Shown here: positions 15,724-25,026 of the stretch, in pieces
Layout of the letters: each line of letters begins with the position of its first letter
Position numbering within the stretch: position 1 is the stretch's first letter
Origin: Sandaracinus amylolyticus
GTDB taxonomy: Bacteria > Myxococcota_A > Polyangia > Polyangiales > Sandaracinaceae
Length of the DNA: 64,000 bases
Assembly: GCF_000737325.1 (NCBI RefSeq)
Contig: NZ_CP011125.1
Location: forward strand, 7,068,001-7,132,000
Direction of reading: 5' to 3'
The notes under the pieces: model-generated
Told to the model about the DNA's origin: nothing
What the model saw: only the letters and a program-made list of their open reading frames with translations
Database searches by the model: none
Made by a program: the position numbers and the translations under genes

Positions 15724-16410
15724 TCACTCGGATGGAGGCGGGAACACCAGCTGGAGCAGCTCGCCGAGGGTCGGACGCCCGAGCAGCTCGTCGAAGGTCC
15801 GCGCCGACCACGCCTCCTCGAGATCGAGCATCCAGCGGCCGGCGGAGCGGATGCCCGCATCGAGGAGCTCGCGATCGTCCGCGCCCGCCTGCTCGCGGAG
15901 CTCGCGCAGCCGGACCGGCGTACGGCGGAGCAGCGCCCAGGTGACCGCGAACTCCGTCGCCGCCTCCGCGCGATCCGGCGCGCGATCGATCTTCTGGATG
16001 ACCGCGGCGACGGTCGCGAACGGATCGATCGGCGCTTCCGAGCGCCGCGCAGCGACCGTCCCGCGTGGCGGCGTCGCCTCGCGGAAGATCTCGTCGAGCC
16101 TGCGGTCGACGGCCGGTCCCGTGCGTGCGTCCCACGCGTCGTGAAGGTGCCGCTTGCCCTGGGCGAGCAAGCCGCGGGCGACCTCGAGCGCGCGCTGTAG
16201 CTCGGGCGCGCGGCCATCCTCGTCACGGAAGGCGTCGATCAGCGCGAGCAGCATGCCGTACCGATCACCGAAGAGCCGCGCCGACTCGAGGTACGGTGTC
16301 GCGCGGCTCGCCACGGTATGGATCGAGTCGGTGATCATCCACTGGACGCTCGGCGTGCCATCGGGCAGCCGCGCGGCCGGTGCGATGCGGGTGCCATCGT
16401 CGGCGCTCAT
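15724..16410 (-). CDS. Cytoplasmic helical protein, unknown function
   Basis: 228 residues, no signal peptide or TM. The protein is almost all helix by composition, with many Ala/Arg/Glu and heptad-like leucines. The ATG at 16410 overlaps the stop of the large surface-protein gene by four bases (ATGA), so it is translated as the second gene of that operon. The family was not recognised. A longer reading from 16488 is possible, but it would overlap the upstream gene by 82 bases and starts with an Arg-rich stretch, so the coupled start is preferred. Confidence 0.7.
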   Translation of the reverse strand: MSADDGTRIAPAARLPDGTPSVQWMITDSIHTVASRATPYLESARLFGDRYGMLLALIDAFRDEDGRAPELQRALEVARGLLAQGKRHLHDAWDARTGPAVDRRLDEIFREATPPRGTVAARRSEAPIDPFATVAAVIQKIDRAPDRAEAATEFAVTWALLRRTPVRLRELREQAGADDRELLDAGIRSAGRWMLDLEEAWSARTFDELLGRPTLGELLQLVFPPPSE

Positions 16411-19400
16411 CGGCCGAGCGTGCCAGAGACCGGTCGGCGTCGACAGACGCGCTCTGCGTCGCGAAGAGCGACGGCGGACGACGCGCACCGCGAGGCGGCA
16501 CCCTCTGACGGCGTGCCCGACGGGTCATCCGCGCCGCGACGGCGTCGTCGCCGTCGGACAGCGACGAGCACGATCGCCATCCCGACGAACGCGAGGCCCG
16601 CGTTGCCGCCCGAGCGCGCGGCGCGGCACGCGCATCCCGCGTCCCCCGGCGCCTCGGGCGAGCCCCCGTCGAGCGTGCGACCCGCGTCGATCTCCGGCGG
16701 TGCCGCGTCGATCGGGAGCGTTCCGGCGTCGCTCGCGAGCGCGCCGTCCAGCGGGGCCTCGGGCTCACACACACGATCGCGAGTCGCCGTGCACGCGCTC
16801 GTCTCATGCGCTCCGGGCGGACACGCCGTGCACGCCGCACACGACGGCGCGTTCACCGACGTCGAGTACGTCCCCGCCGGGCACGCTGCGCAGACGCGGT
16901 CGCTCGCCACCGTCGCCATCGCCGCGACGTACTGCCCCGCGGCGCAGTCGGTCCACGCGACACACGTCGCTGCGTTCGGCGCCGACGTCCAGCCCGAGCT
17001 GCAGGGGACGCACACCCGATCGCTCGTCGGTGTCCCGGCGGACGACTCGCGCTCGCCGGGCACGCAGTCCGTCCACGGCGTGCACGAGGGCGCGTTCGTC
17101 GTGCTCGAATATCCGCCCGCGCAGGCCACGCACGTTCGATCGCGGGTCGCGCTGCCCGCCGACGCCACGTGCGTGCCGGGGGCGCAGGTCGTCCATTCCG
17201 TGCACGCCGTCGCGCCGGTTCCATCGGCCGAGTACGTCCCCGCAGGGCACGCGCTGCAGGCGTACGTCGCCCCCGGGCCGGGGGCGCAGGTCGTCGCCGC
17301 GTCGCACGCGTTCGCACCCCCGCAGCTCCCTGCGGCGCAGCGATCCGAGATCGTGCATGCGTTCGTGTCGTCGCAGGCCGTCCCCGTGAGGGCCGCGCAC
17401 GCGCCGTTGCCGGGCGCCCCCGTCGCAACCGAGCACGCCAGGCAGTCCGTCGCCCCGCCGCCACACGCGTCGTCGCAGCACACTCCGTCGACGCAGTGCC
17501 CGCTCGCGCAGTCACCGCTCGAACCGCAGACCGAGCCGAGCGGCGTCCGGTCATCGATCAGACGCGCACGGATGCGTCGCGTGCGCTCGGGGACCTCGGC
17601 GACGAAGCGGTCGTACACGAGGAGGAAGCGGCCCGGGGGCCCCGCCGCGATCTCCGCGCTCTGCTCGGAGAAGGGCGAGGTCGCGAGCGCGAGGCCGGAC
17701 GCGTCCCTCACGCTCGTCCCGACGATGCGCGCTCCATACACGTCGGCGCGCGAGCCGCCGCGATAGTCTCGCCACACGACGAAGTAGTCGCTTCGGTCCG
17801 ACGCGACCTCGGGCGCCCCCCGACTGCCGGCCTCGGCGTGGATCGTGATCGGCGTCGGGCCGGACACGCCGGAGCTCGTCACGACCGTGCCCCGGATGTG
17901 CACGTCCGCGAGCCCGTAGGACCAGACGACGAAGTAGCTCGTCGCGCTCGCCGCGACGGCCGGTGCGTTTTCGTACTCGGTTCGCGTCGCGATCGGGAAC
18001 CCCGACGGATCCGAGATCGCGCCGGCCGTGCTCACGAACGTCGCGTACACGTCCGCCTGCGACGTGCGCTGGTCCTCGTAGACGACGAGGTAACCGGACG
18101 CGCCGAACGCGGCGCGTGGCGAGTGCTCGGCGTGCCCACCGGTCGCGATCCCGAGACCGCTCGGATGCGACACCGCGCCCGAGGCACCGACGAACGTGCC
18201 GTACACGTCGCGCCCACCGGACGTGCGCGCGTCGGTCCACACCACGAGGCACCGCGCGGGATCGCACGCGGCGCTGGGATCGGTCTGCGCGCCCGACGCG
18301 GTCGAGATCGCGATCCCCGATGGATTCGACACCGCGCCGCTCGCGGTGACCCGTGTTCCGCGGACGTCGCTCGCGTCGGCGCTGCTCTCCTCCTCCCAGA
18401 CGACGAGCCAGCCCTCCCCGTCCGACGCGACACGAGGCGATCGCCGCTCCACCGTGCCGCTCGAGATCGCGATCCCCGACGGATCGAGCACCGCGCCCGA
18501 CGGATCGACGCGCGCGCCCCAGACAGCCCAGGACGCGCCGCGCGCGTCCGCCCACGCGACCAGCCAGCTCGTCCCGTCGTACGCCACGCTCGGGGTGCGC
18601 TGCGCGTTGGCTGCTCCGCCGAGCCGCGTCCCGGAAGGGTCGGCGGGCGCGCCGGCGAGCGTGACCGCGGTTCCGTAGAGCTCGTTGGCCGCGAGCGCCT
18701 CCGGCGGCGGGCGCGAGGCGAGCCACGTGACGTACAGCGCCGTGCCGTTCGTCGCGACGGTCGGCGTCGCTCCGCGCGTGGAGATCGCGAGCCCGCCGGG
18801 GTCGCGCACGACGCCCACGCTCGTGACGCGCGCGCCGTAGACACTGGTGCCGCCCCCCGCGCGCTCGTCGGACCAGACGACGAAGTAGTCGGAGCCGGCG
18901 CGCGCGACGTTCGGCCTCCGCTCTGCGGCCGATCCGGCGGAGATCGCGATGCCGCCCGGGTCGCTGACGCCCCCGGCGGCGCTGACGCGCGTCGCATAGA
19001 CATCGTAGTGGAAGCCGCCGGCGCGGCCGTCCGACCACACGACGAGATAGCCCGTGCCGTTTGACGCGACACTCACCTCGAGCTGAGCGCCCGCGGCGGT
19101 CGAGAGCGCGATGCCCGAGGCGTCGAACACGGTGCCCGACGCCGACACGCGAGCGCCGTAGACGTCGCCCTCGCCCGAGGTGCGCCCGTCCCGCCACACG
19201 ACGAGGAAGTCGGTGCCGTTCGACGCGACACGCGGCTCGCTCTGCACGCCGGTCGCGCTCGAGATCGAGAACGCGGACCCGAGCAGCGCGCCGTCCCGGC
19301 TCACGCGGATGCCGAGGACGTTGTTGTCTGCGAACGCCGCACGCTGCCACACGACCAGGTAATGCGACCCGTTCCACGCCACGCTGGGCCAGTAGTCCTG

Positions 19401-20495
19401 AGAGCTCGTGCGGTGGACGGCGATGCCCGAAGGATCGAGCACCGCCCCCGCGCTCGTGACCCGCGCGCCGTAGACGTCGAAGTCCGCGTTGGCGTGCTGC
19501 CACACGACGAAGTAGTCGGTCCCGTCGGACGCGACGGCCGGCATGGCCTGCGAGCTCGTCGAGCCCGACACCAGGATTCCATGCGGGTCGAGCACCGTGC
19601 CGGAGGCGTCGACGCGGGTCGCGAAGACGGCGGGCGTGTCCGCGCGAGTCTCGGTCCACACGACGAGATAGCCGCTCCCGTTGGACGCGATCGCCGGGTC
19701 CGTCTTGGTGCCCGAGGTGGGCGAGAGCACCGGCGTGTCCAGGCCGACCTCGGGCGAGATCACCGGATCGAGGACCGCGGGATACGTCGCGGCGCCGACG
19801 ACGTCGGACGGAACGACGAGCTCGATGCGGTCGCCACGCCAGCGCGCAGGGATCCGGGTCTCCTGGCCGGACGCGTCGACCCACAGGCCGTGCCCGTAGC
19901 GCAGCCCGAGGCCCGAGCTCGCGTCGGCGAAGTGGATCCCGCTCGGCGTGTCCGCGACGTGCGCCGCGCCGCGAACGTCGACCGTCACACGAAGCGAGCC
20001 GTCGCCGGCGGGCTCGCGCGCGAACGCCCAGCTCTGCTCGACGCCCTCGGCACGGTGATGAAAGTGCTCGACGACCTCGCCGCGATCGATGGCGAGGTGC
20101 CCGTCTGGCGCGACCCGCGCGCGCGGCGCGCGCGACAGCTCGACGTCTCGATCGCCACGCACGACGGCGCGGAGCTCGACCCGAACCGACCGGGAAGGCT
20201 CGCGATCCGCGCGCGGATGGATCGGCGTGATGTCGATGCCGCGCGCGTCGGCGACGACGGTGCGAGTCGCGTCGCCTGCAGTGAAGCGCGAGCCGTCGGG
20301 CCGAAAGGAGAAATGAACACGATCGACAATCGCGCCCACGTCGAACGGCGCGACGTCGCTGGCGGGTGCGACGTCGGCGCCAGCCGATGAGCGCCGCGAG
20401 GCGGGCTCATCCGGGGCGGGACCGGGTGGTGGAGCGTCACAGCCGCCGAGGACGACGAACGACGTGAGGACCGCCGACGAGACGTGTGGGTGCAT
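16407..20495 (-). CDS. Giant propeller-repeat surface lipoprotein with TNFR-like Cys repeats and CTERM-like tail
   Basis: 1362 residues. The signal peptide ends in the lipobox LGGC (about residue 19). After an N-terminal domain (about 50-235), some 13 repeats of about 50 residues follow. Each holds a YLVVWxDxR strand, DVYGaRV and DPSGIAI, which suggests one or two beta-propellers. A Cys-rich region (about 1040-1260) has TNFR/furin-like units of the form CxxCPxGxY...CxxWTxCxPG...RxRxC. Near residue 1300, CACR, a hydrophobic stretch and an Arg cluster resemble a MYXO-CTERM sorting signal. About 40 further residues follow it, which is odd for such signals. Having both a lipobox and a C-terminal anchor is also unusual. 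It is translationally coupled to a 228-residue protein. Confidence 0.88.
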   Translation of the reverse strand: MHPHVSSAVLTSFVVLGGCDAPPPGPAPDEPASRRSSAGADVAPASDVAPFDVGAIVDRVHFSFRPDGSRFTAGDATRTVVADARGIDITPIHPRADREPSRSVRVELRAVVRGDRDVELSRAPRARVAPDGHLAIDRGEVVEHFHHRAEGVEQSWAFAREPAGDGSLRVTVDVRGAAHVADTPSGIHFADASSGLGLRYGHGLWVDASGQETRIPARWRGDRIELVVPSDVVGAATYPAVLDPVISPEVGLDTPVLSPTSGTKTDPAIASNGSGYLVVWTETRADTPAVFATRVDASGTVLDPHGILVSGSTSSQAMPAVASDGTDYFVVWQHANADFDVYGARVTSAGAVLDPSGIAVHRTSSQDYWPSVAWNGSHYLVVWQRAAFADNNVLGIRVSRDGALLGSAFSISSATGVQSEPRVASNGTDFLVVWRDGRTSGEGDVYGARVSASGTVFDASGIALSTAAGAQLEVSVASNGTGYLVVWSDGRAGGFHYDVYATRVSAAGGVSDPGGIAISAGSAAERRPNVARAGSDYFVVWSDERAGGGTSVYGARVTSVGVVRDPGGLAISTRGATPTVATNGTALYVTWLASRPPPEALAANELYGTAVTLAGAPADPSGTRLGGAANAQRTPSVAYDGTSWLVAWADARGASWAVWGARVDPSGAVLDPSGIAISSGTVERRSPRVASDGEGWLVVWEEESSADASDVRGTRVTASGAVSNPSGIAISTASGAQTDPSAACDPARCLVVWTDARTSGGRDVYGTFVGASGAVSHPSGLGIATGGHAEHSPRAAFGASGYLVVYEDQRTSQADVYATFVSTAGAISDPSGFPIATRTEYENAPAVAASATSYFVVWSYGLADVHIRGTVVTSSGVSGPTPITIHAEAGSRGAPEVASDRSDYFVVWRDYRGGSRADVYGARIVGTSVRDASGLALATSPFSEQSAEIAAGPPGRFLLVYDRFVAEVPERTRRIRARLIDDRTPLGSVCGSSGDCASGHCVDGVCCDDACGGGATDCLACSVATGAPGNGACAALTGTACDDTNACTISDRCAAGSCGGANACDAATTCAPGPGATYACSACPAGTYSADGTGATACTEWTTCAPGTHVASAGSATRDRTCVACAGGYSSTTNAPSCTPWTDCVPGERESSAGTPTSDRVCVPCSSGWTSAPNAATCVAWTDCAAGQYVAAMATVASDRVCAACPAGTYSTSVNAPSCAACTACPPGAHETSACTATRDRVCEPEAPLDGALASDAGTLPIDAAPPEIDAGRTLDGGSPEAPGDAGCACRAARSGGNAGLAFVGMAIVLVAVRRRRRRRGADDPSGTPSEGAASRCASSAVALRDAERVCRRRPVSGTLGR

Positions 20496-22569: not shown

Positions 22570-22586
22570 GCGTGCTCAGAGCACGC
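22570..22586. terminator. Hairpin between convergent genes
   Basis: GCGTGCT (22570-22576) and AGCACGC (22580-22586) form a 7-bp perfect stem with a CAG loop. It lies over the gap and the last codons between two convergent genes. There is no T run, as is common at this GC content. It could terminate transcription in both directions. Confidence 0.4.
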
Positions 22587-23817
22587 GCAGGCGCTTCGAG
22601 GGACGCTCGACGCGCGCGACGCCTTCGCCCTCGACCCACGGCTCGACGACGATCTCCCAGCGCCCGTGATCGAACGGCGCGCCCGGCGCCGCCTCCACGC
22701 GCACCAAGCGCTCTCGCTCGCCTCGCGCGCGCATCTCGAGCGCGCGGTGGTGGCAGTACGGGTTGTTGCCCGGGCGCCCGAAGAACGTGTGCGCGGTCCA
22801 GGTGCAGCCACCGCCGCACACGCTCGCGTAGTAGCAGCGCGCGCACTCGCCCCAGAGCGCGCCCGGGAGCTCGCGATCTCGCACGTACCGCAGCTCGCGC
22901 GTCTGCTCCCAGATCTCGCGAAGGCTCGCCTCGCGCGCCGTGCCGCCGACCCAGTCGGCGCTCGGGAGCGACGGGCATCCCTTGATCGATCCGTCGGACT
23001 CGATGCCCATCGCGTGTTTGCCCGCGATGCACCCGCCCCACGCGACGTCGTCGGTGATGCCGCGCCCGCGCAGCGTCGCTTCGTGGGGCCCGAAGTAGCC
23101 GATGTTGTTCCCCGGGAAGAAGAGCACGCCGTGGCGCGCGCCGCGCTCGGCGAGCGCCGCGAGCTTCGGGTACACCTCGAGCAGCTCGTGCGGCTGGAGC
23201 AACCAGTCGGGCCGATCGGCCGCGCGCCCCATCGGCACCGTCATCGCGAGCTGCCACCCGGTCGCGCGCTCTTCGACCAGCAGATCGAGGATCGCGTCGA
23301 GCTCGGGGTACGAGAGGCGGTTCACCTGCGTGTTCGCCTGCAGCGTGACCCCGGCGTCACGCAGGTTGCGCATCGCGACGCGCGCCGACTCGAACGCGCC
23401 GTCGAGCCCGCGCTGCACGTCGTGCGTGGCGCCGATCCCGTCGATCGAGATCGACACCGACGCGACGCCCGCCTCGCGCGCGGCGCGCGCTCGCGTCGCA
23501 TCGAGGCCGCGCCCGCCGGAGACCATCGCGCAGCGCATCCCCGCGTCGGCGATCGCGCGCGCGACGATCGTCCAGTCGTCGCGCAGATAGGCCTCACCTC
23601 CGATGAGCACGACCTCGCGCGCGCCCATCGACGCGAGCTGTCGCACCACGTCGAGCGCCTCGTCGGTCGAGAGCTCGTCCTCGCGCGCCTTGCCTGCGCG
23701 TGAGCCGCAGTGGCGGCACGCGAGATCGCAGCGCAGCGTCAGCTCCCAGACGACGTAGCGCAGCCCGGTCTCGCCGATCGGCGTGACGCGGGGATCACGG
23801 ATCGAGCCGTGCGTCAC
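22576..23817 (-). CDS. Radical SAM/SPASM peptide-modifying enzyme
   Basis: 413 residues. The radical SAM CxxxCxxC is at Cys30, Cys34 and Cys37 (LTLRCDLACRHCGSRAG), with a GGEAYLR element. The C-terminal SPASM domain has cysteines in GGCIAGKHAMGIESDGSIKGCP and CARCYYASVCGGGCTW for auxiliary iron-sulfur clusters. Enzymes of this build modify peptides through carbon-centred radicals, often within RiPP-like systems. Its GTG start overlaps by four bases the stop of an 83-residue zinc-ribbon peptide gene, which makes that peptide the obvious candidate substrate or partner. The chemistry performed is not deducible from sequence. Confidence 0.9.
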   Translation of the reverse strand: MTHGSIRDPRVTPIGETGLRYVVWELTLRCDLACRHCGSRAGKAREDELSTDEALDVVRQLASMGAREVVLIGGEAYLRDDWTIVARAIADAGMRCAMVSGGRGLDATRARAAREAGVASVSISIDGIGATHDVQRGLDGAFESARVAMRNLRDAGVTLQANTQVNRLSYPELDAILDLLVEERATGWQLAMTVPMGRAADRPDWLLQPHELLEVYPKLAALAERGARHGVLFFPGNNIGYFGPHEATLRGRGITDDVAWGGCIAGKHAMGIESDGSIKGCPSLPSADWVGGTAREASLREIWEQTRELRYVRDRELPGALWGECARCYYASVCGGGCTWTAHTFFGRPGNNPYCHHRALEMRARGERERLVRVEAAPGAPFDHGRWEIVVEPWVEGEGVARVERPSKRLRVL

Positions 23818-24065
23818 GGGCTCGGATCGCCGGCGTCGTCGGTCGCGCCGTCCTGCGCCGCGTCCGGCCGCCCGGGATCGGGCGCGCCGTACACGCAGCC
23901 GAGCGTGGTCGCGGTGACGGCGACTCCCGCCGCGACGGCAACCGCAGCGGCGACGACCGCGCCGGTGCGTGGGGCCCTTCCTTCGATGTCGTTCCCACAG
24001 AACGGGCAGCGCGCGTCGTCACCCACGACGTGCCGTCGACAAGCTCCACAGAGGCGTAGCGTCAT
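23814..24065 (-). CDS. Zinc-ribbon small lipoprotein/peptide, candidate substrate
   Basis: 83 residues. The N-terminus holds a four-Cys zinc ribbon (C6, C9, C20, C23: LCGACRRHVV...CPFCG). A hydrophobic segment (about 35-56) ends in TTLGCVYGAPDPG, and an Asp/Ala/Pro-rich tail of about 20 residues follows. The TLGC may be a lipobox, but the ribbon before the segment makes an ordinary signal peptide unlikely. Alternatively the CVYGAPD motif could be the modified core. Its stop overlaps the start of the radical SAM/SPASM enzyme (GTGA). The gene is short but its character and coupling make it convincing. Confidence 0.75.
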   Translation of the reverse strand: MTLRLCGACRRHVVGDDARCPFCGNDIEGRAPRTGAVVAAAVAVAAGVAVTATTLGCVYGAPDPGRPDAAQDGATDDAGDPSP

Positions 24066-24102: not shown

Positions 24103-25026
24103 TCAACGCGGTGCGCAGCGCGTCGCGAGCCAGATGTCGGCGTCGTCGCCGCCGTCCTCGTCGGCCGCGTGGTTGAAGTAGAGCGTCGCGCCGTCGGGCG
24201 AGAACGACGGCTTCGAGTCGTCGCTCGTCGAGTTGAGCGCGGTCAGGTTCAACGGCTCGCCGAAGGGCGCGTGGACGCTCGGACGCCGCGCGATCCAGAG
24301 GTCGAGCCCTCCCGCGCCACCGGGGCGATCCGACGCGAACACGAGCTCCAGCCCGTCGGGCGAGATCGTCATCGAGCTCTCCGCGTAGGTCGTGTTCAGC
24401 TCGTCGATGCGCTCGAGGGGCTCGAACGGCTCGTCGAGCGCGGGCCTCGTGGCGATCCAGAGGTTCGAGCTCTCGCCACCACCGCGCCAGCTCGCGACGA
24501 ACGCGGTGAGCCCATCGCGCGAGAGCTCGACGTCGGTCTCGCTGCCGTTCGCGCTCAGATCACCGAGCGAGTCGGGCGCGACGAACGTCGTGCCTCCACC
24601 GGGCGTCGCGCTCCACACGTCGAACTCGCTCGTGACGTGCGGCGAGTGCGCGAGGAAGTAGAGCGTTCCATCGGGCCCGAGCGCGGGCGCGGACTGGAAG
24701 TCCGCGTCGTTCACGCCCGCGACGAGCTCGGCCGCGCCGAACGCCGAGCGCACGTCCGATCGTCGCGCGACCCAGAGATCCGAGCTGCCCGCGCCGCCTG
24801 CGCGCCACGACGCGAAGTAGAGCGCGAGCCCGTCGTTCGTCACGAAGGGTGCCCAGTCGTCGGTGCCGACGACGTTGACCCCCGGCACTGGACCCACGAG
24901 CGCGAGCTCGGCCGTGCAGCGCTCGTCTTCCTGCGGCTCGTACCCGAGCTTGCCGCAGCCGACTGCGAGCACGACGGCGGTCACGATGGCGCAGCGGGAT
25001 ACGCGAAACGACGGCGCTCGGACCAT
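24103..25026 (-). CDS. PD40/TolB-like beta-propeller lipoprotein
   Basis: 307 residues. The signal peptide ends in LAVGC. The body has about five PD40 repeats of the form LYFxSxRxGGxGSxDLWxARR, SPDGLELVFASDRPGGAGG and PSFSPDGATLYFNH, as in TolB and OmpA-associated propellers. Such proteins sit in the periplasm and bind proteins or peptidoglycan-linked partners. There is no protease or OmpA domain here, so it is a stand-alone propeller. A TAGTAT box lies 9 bp before the start. It is divergent from a methyltransferase gene with 42 bp between the start codons. Confidence 0.85.
   Translation of the reverse strand: MVRAPSFRVSRCAIVTAVVLAVGCGKLGYEPQEDERCTAELALVGPVPGVNVVGTDDWAPFVTNDGLALYFASWRAGGAGSSDLWVARRSDVRSAFGAAELVAGVNDADFQSAPALGPDGTLYFLAHSPHVTSEFDVWSATPGGGTTFVAPDSLGDLSANGSETDVELSRDGLTAFVASWRGGGESSNLWIATRPALDEPFEPLERIDELNTTYAESSMTISPDGLELVFASDRPGGAGGLDLWIARRPSVHAPFGEPLNLTALNSTSDDSKPSFSPDGATLYFNHAADEDGGDDADIWLATRCAPR

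Follow-up and report, generated by a model that had tools for sequence, protein, structure and literature searches.

The PlpX/PlpY splicease system of Pleurocapsa PCC 7319 was reportedly presented by Morinaka et al. in 2018. The splicease and its PlpA spliceotide precursors are described in PMC10533398, PMC11002830 and PMC10373908, and PlpX is known from these papers to cut most of a tyrosine from the protein backbone. Splice tags have been derived from PlpA2 and PlpA3, the residue before the tyrosine being partly changed to glycine in them, and PlpXY has already been pursued for installing ketoamides in proteins (PMC10533398). Spliceotides have moreover been reported to inhibit proteases (PMC10373908, PMC11117315), and splicease chemistry is reported to be widespread in the survey of Scott et al. 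(2022), as represented in papers that cite it.

We analysed a stretch of 64,000 nucleotides from Sandaracinus amylolyticus (contig NZ_CP011125.1, positions 7,068,001 to 7,132,000), hereafter the window. Its minus strand codes for a predicted precursor or substrate, a ribbon lipoprotein of 83 aa (23814..24065), and for a PlpX-type radical SAM/SPASM enzyme of 413 aa (22576..23817). Both reading frames are thus as the initial annotation had described them, a four-cysteine ribbon protein overlapping a radical SAM/SPASM enzyme: the overlap is GTGA (23814-23817), which ends the 83-codon gene and whose GTG starts the enzyme gene. GC-rich DNA contains many spurious open reading frames. We took the small frame as genuine because it is conserved as a protein, its ribbon, lipobox cysteine and YG recurring beside homologous enzymes (leader match within its own genome, E 5.8e-14). 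The enzyme matches Pfam Radical_SAM (1.6e-17) and SPASM (2.3e-6); its cluster motif CDLACRHC (C30, C34, C37; 23707..23730, minus strand) and the seven cysteines of its SPASM region (C263, 281, 325, 328, 334, 338 and 355; 22753..23031, minus strand) remain the same in all of 15 aligned homologues. A PD40 beta-propeller protein, lipobox-like at its N-terminus, is encoded immediately upstream of the pair and likewise on the minus strand (24103-25026). Elsewhere on the minus strand of the window, a predicted lipoprotein of 1362 aa (16407-20495) combines Cys-rich repeats with a C-terminal hydrophobic/arginine tail, which presumably resembles a MYXO-CTERM sorting signal. We read the enzyme as a PlpX-type splicease and the ribbon lipoprotein as its substrate, which would be docked through the ribbon, spliced and processed by LspA to an envelope lipoprotein, and we assign this reading a probability of about 0.75. 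The analysis is based on homology, motif, co-occurrence and architecture, from which we infer splicing, docking, lipidation, cleavage and role.

Near its N-terminus the small protein carries the ribbon leader CGACRRHVVGDDARCPFC (residues 6-23; 23997..24050, minus strand), a putative zinc ribbon homologous to ribbons fused to or lying beside related enzymes and containing Cys6, 9, 20 and 23 as two CxxC pairs. None of the ribbon models of Pfam scores above its cut-off here, nor does the protein attain that of any NCBIfam or Pfam model. The protein has the sequence form of a bacterial lipoprotein, with R30 and R33 in a positively charged n-region, an h-region of 23 residues at about 34-56 and the lipobox TLGC57 (residues 34-57, TLG/C; 23895..23966, minus strand), the latter agreeing with the lipobox statistics of the family. 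The V-Y-G follows the lipobox cysteine directly (TTLGC/VYGAP) and belongs to the predicted splice motif V-Y-G-A-P (residues 58-62; 23880..23894, minus strand), which is singled out by the conservation of YG and by its resemblance to PlpX substrate tags. Its Tyr59 is the sole tyrosine of the protein, in the context C-V-Y-G-A-P-D-P-G, and lies in an acidic tail. From the lipobox, the predicted mature lipopeptide is CVYGAPDPGRPDAAQDGATDDAGDPSP, acidic and 27 aa long (23817..23897, minus strand).

The reference for PlpX was obtained at a locus (L153) that came up on scanning the cyanobacterial relatives of one match, where two nif11-leader precursors occur, one ending in PIRPLYGLPI and the other carrying AVAAMYGVVFPWD (AVAAMYGVVFP). 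Since these match the tags derived from PlpA2 and PlpA3, the adjoining enzyme is PlpX or an identical counterpart. The window enzyme shares 51% identity and 68% similarity with it over 381 aa, while SkfB, PqqE and BlsE were matched only at E 1e-11 to 1e-15; as judged by sequence, it is a relative of this characterised splicease. The best curated models were TIGR04103 (490 bits, cut-off 725), against which full-length nif11-linked enzymes score 785-854, and TIGR03913 (430 bits, cut-off 592; 591.75 bits). TIGR04133 was considered first for the YGxP motif, which we take to occur in TIGR04133/04134 lipoproteins as well, and membership was ruled out by a score of 164 bits, below the cut-off of 425. 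In the enzyme tree, the PlpX/nif11 clade (99*) lies among the ribbon-associated enzymes and has as its sister (99*) a cyanobacterial enzyme of the ribbon type (L096); the tree is unrooted and so carries no direction of change between nif11 and ribbon types. Within the ribbon family, LYGLP and YGCVFPD occur as variants of the motif, and between them they recall the two natural motifs of PlpX.

To follow the motif across homologues, 110 loci were gathered by genome scans, and the tails of 114 ribbon peptides from enzyme-linked loci were compared. YG was found in 107 of them, at one to five XYG sites per peptide, and four of the remaining seven are apparently incomplete or truncated by the end of the locus. 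Glycine follows 240 of the 270 tail tyrosines, where shuffling each tail 1000 times gave 67 at most, and the usual context is P/A-[LAV]-Y-G-[AGL]-P-P. In the window's own clade (L013, L015, L017) the site reads C-[VA]-Y-G-[AMS]-P, directly after the lipobox cysteine. The proposal of a maturase and its substrate, with the conserved residues after the membrane segment, is supported by these XYG sites in ribbon peptides beside homologous enzymes; of the suggested YGAPD motif the aspartate is not conserved, the conserved form being X-Y-G-x-P.

It might be argued that a splicease-related enzyme performs some other chemistry at the YG, for example a tyrosine crosslink, a C-C or C-O bond, an epimerisation or a thioether, for SPASM enzymes are chemically diverse and the window enzyme scores under the cut-off of the PlpX-type equivalog. 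We consider this unlikely in view of the identity to PlpX together with the same XYG motif and of the nesting of the PlpX clade inside the enzyme family; besides, conservation in the tails falls on YG, and no second residue stands out as a conserved crosslink partner. Splicing at V58-Y59-G60 is retained as likely from homology and motif.

Several loci depart from the common pattern. In a small number of ribbon peptides, Y-G is replaced by Y-A or Y-S (L103, L114 and L119, with IYAAAI, IYSAAF and DYAGG), natural variants that could test the motif. In three others (L248, L261, L111) the lipobox cysteine itself precedes the YG (AAC-YG-[VLT]P), so that, by sequence, the lipidated cysteine would be the spliced residue. 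Far longer Cys-rich ribbon proteins of 350-510 aa adjoin the enzyme at two loci (L061:2174-3835 and L072:2778-3845) and end in PYGCVWPD, a site at the extreme C-terminus that is close to the PlpA3-type motif YGVVFP. L054, L056, L069, L074, L079, L087 and L108 each contain two enzyme genes of the family, separated or flanked by several ribbon peptides. At L105 and L106, loci labelled Brevundimonas and Mesorhizobium, related enzymes adjoin proteins that have IYGV sites and another kind of leader. More distant SPASM homologues (L252-L260 and L262-L265) had no ribbon or qualifying YG neighbour by the patterns used, and were set aside as a different branch.

A cysteine of lipobox type ends the hydrophobic segment in 112 of the 114 linked peptides, with alanine or glycine at -1 in 107. 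The hydrophobic segment noticed in the initial annotation is hence read as a lipoprotein signal ending in a lipobox-like cysteine, and the statement that the peptide is not a plain lipoprotein is not supported. An unlinked ribbon lipoprotein with YG (L237, G103:C3:959200-960600) is extended by a peptidoglycan-binding domain of the OmpA family (Pfam OmpA, 1.1e-12), which places its tail in the envelope. These observations bear on the view that the product is a classical secreted RiPP, a toxin or signal freed by a dedicated protease and exporter, as the small acidic tails with repeated motifs, reminiscent of multi-core RiPP precursors, might suggest. Both the near invariance of the cysteine and the OmpA fusion speak against it, as does the fact that no protease or transporter gene was seen directly beside the pair among neighbours partly scanned against families, and we regard it as improbable to much the same degree as an alternative chemistry. 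An envelope lipoprotein, lipidated and relieved of its leader by LspA, is the likely outcome given the form of the sequence.

The ribbon itself is not restricted to the substrates. In Acidobacteria, enzymes of the TIGR03913 type carry it at their own C-terminus and are adjoined by small PPYGxxIR..GD proteins, and in Myxococcaceae it forms a separate protein of 55 residues beside substrates with two YG sites. Profile comparison identified the two ribbon sets as homologous (hhalign, E 3.6e-14), and the residues C, C, H and C-P-F-C are invariant in 33 leaders, as is the lipobox cysteine in the leader profile (A2). The predicted structure of a ribbon-fused enzyme (pLDDT 86, pTM 0.83) matches radical SAM/SPASM maturases (SuiB, SkfB, anSME), its ribbon forming a hairpin (block pLDDT about 83-94). 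A domain that turns up on the substrate, on the enzyme or alone, each time with these same partners, is most readily understood as a docking element, and from this arrangement the ribbon is probably a docking leader. A PlpY-like gene follows, in the place of plpY, at 31 of 31 nif11-type loci, its identity as PlpY being inferred from this place beside plpX, while a search of the ribbon-type loci found a PlpY-like protein at none of them.

Substrates of the same kind also occur away from the enzyme. We inspected 41 such ribbon proteins; 40 are ribbon lipoproteins of the window type, every one with YG, and the exception (L195) is a ribbon protein of another kind, in which YG is missing. Over the whole unlinked set, 91 of 104 tyrosines lie in YG. 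In the genome of S. amylolyticus there are four leaders, namely that of the window, two beside a paralogous enzyme at 2.495 Mb, and an unlinked one at 4.705 Mb carrying PIPLYGAPP. It has to be weighed, then, whether the ribbon protein could be a metal- or redox-binding partner of an enzyme whose true substrate lies elsewhere, since free-standing and enzyme-fused ribbons without a YG tail do exist and would make the ribbon itself a partner domain. This is very improbable, for nearly every ribbon protein of the window type has its own XYG tail, with up to five copies, and the unlinked copies retain XYG too; the ribbon lipoprotein remains our candidate for the substrate.

Among 379 genomes of the phylum, the leader profile matches 101 and the enzyme was found in 144; 96 of the 101 leader genomes have both (Fisher P 2e-46, a value that ignores the relatedness of the genomes). 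Five leader genomes are without the enzyme and two enzyme genomes without a leader, and in some genomes 26-27 leaders were counted, most of them on contigs that lack the enzyme. Within the DNA covered, a ribbon gene whose tail has Y[GAS] is present in 76 of 89 non-redundant ribbon-type loci (same strand in 71); among the remaining 13, several are clipped by a contig end or hold a variant outside the search pattern. As the homologues come mostly from one phylum, the loci are not fully independent. Chance neighbourhood with a meaningless overlap, conceivable in a GC-rich genome full of spurious open reading frames, has a negligible probability against these 76 loci and this co-occurrence. The enzyme without an adjoining peptide, which the initial annotation had named as the case that would speak against the pairing, was in fact seen at some loci, and in most such genomes ribbon peptides sit elsewhere, so that the pairing survives it.

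Under the splicease reading, the N-terminal ribbon would stay in the cytoplasm and dock the substrate on the enzyme, a task for which PlpX relies on a nif11 leader together with PlpY, a small protein; the window enzyme is accordingly assumed to be catalytic without PlpY. Splicing would excise tyramine (-135.07 Da) and leave an alpha-ketoamide. Cys57 would be lipidated and LspA would cut before it, removing the ribbon together with the membrane segment, in which case the signal peptidase would double as leader peptidase. The predicted product is an acidic lipopeptide derived from 27 codons, in which an electrophilic ketoamide sits next to the lipid anchor. In other genomes, a single enzyme or a small number of them may act on many unlinked ribbon lipoproteins, of which some have 2-5 XYG sites. 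The use suggested for such products is the trapping of proteases at the cell envelope, the weakest step of the proposal and a tentative one, drawn from the papers on protease inhibition by spliceotides.

It appears that in many related bacteria a set of such lipoproteins shares one enzyme or a few, which has the look of a wider protein-modification system and not of a single odd peptide. In its fullest form, the idea is of a genome-wide system in which the splicease puts alpha-keto-beta-amino acids into many unlinked envelope lipoproteins (up to 27 leaders per genome), addressed by a removable cytoplasmic ribbon tag that, in the course of evolution, has come to stand on the enzyme or on a separate adaptor as well, so that an electrophilic, backbone-edited lipoproteome is displayed; to this we give even odds. 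If true, tyramine splicing would recur in Myxococcota and related groups as a way of modifying envelope lipoproteins, beyond a few cyanobacterial peptides; the ribbon would offer a small docking tag that could be transplanted to proteins so as to install ketoamides in them; and the GDL-motif family (TIGR03913) would gain a likely reaction, with the ribbon on that enzyme explained.

In the papers that could be searched we found nothing that joins spliceases with ribbon lipoproteins, although the survey of Scott et al. (2022) may already include some. As far as could be checked, these papers describe neither the ribbon-lipoprotein substrates nor their scatter across the genome nor the ribbon module that is shared; the chemistry is known. 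The suggestion that the pair is undescribed holds only in part, the enzyme being so close to a characterised splicease and the motif so like the published tags.

Compared with known systems, the chryseobasin-type lipidated RiPPs also use the lipoprotein pathway in making a modified peptide, but, according to PMC12636315, with an MNIO enzyme in place of a radical SAM enzyme and a different chemistry. The TIGR03913 maturases (GDL motif peptide-associated radical SAM/SPASM maturase) share both the enzyme family and the ribbon, whereas the window enzyme falls below their cut-off and has no ribbon of its own, the predicted substrate bearing it in its place. The TIGR04133 rSAM/lipoprotein system, in which we take a SPASM enzyme to be paired with a putative lipoprotein, differs in that the window enzyme scores under its cut-off, and the nif11 leader and PlpY of the TIGR04103 spliceotide system are both missing from the window pair. 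PlpXY remains the closest relative, in its half-identical enzyme and in substrates sharing X-Y-G and similar downstream residues (LYGLP; YG.VFP), but the leader of the window is a ribbon with a lipoprotein signal and not a nif11 leader, PlpY is absent, many of the ribbon-type substrates are unlinked, and the product is predicted to be anchored in the membrane.
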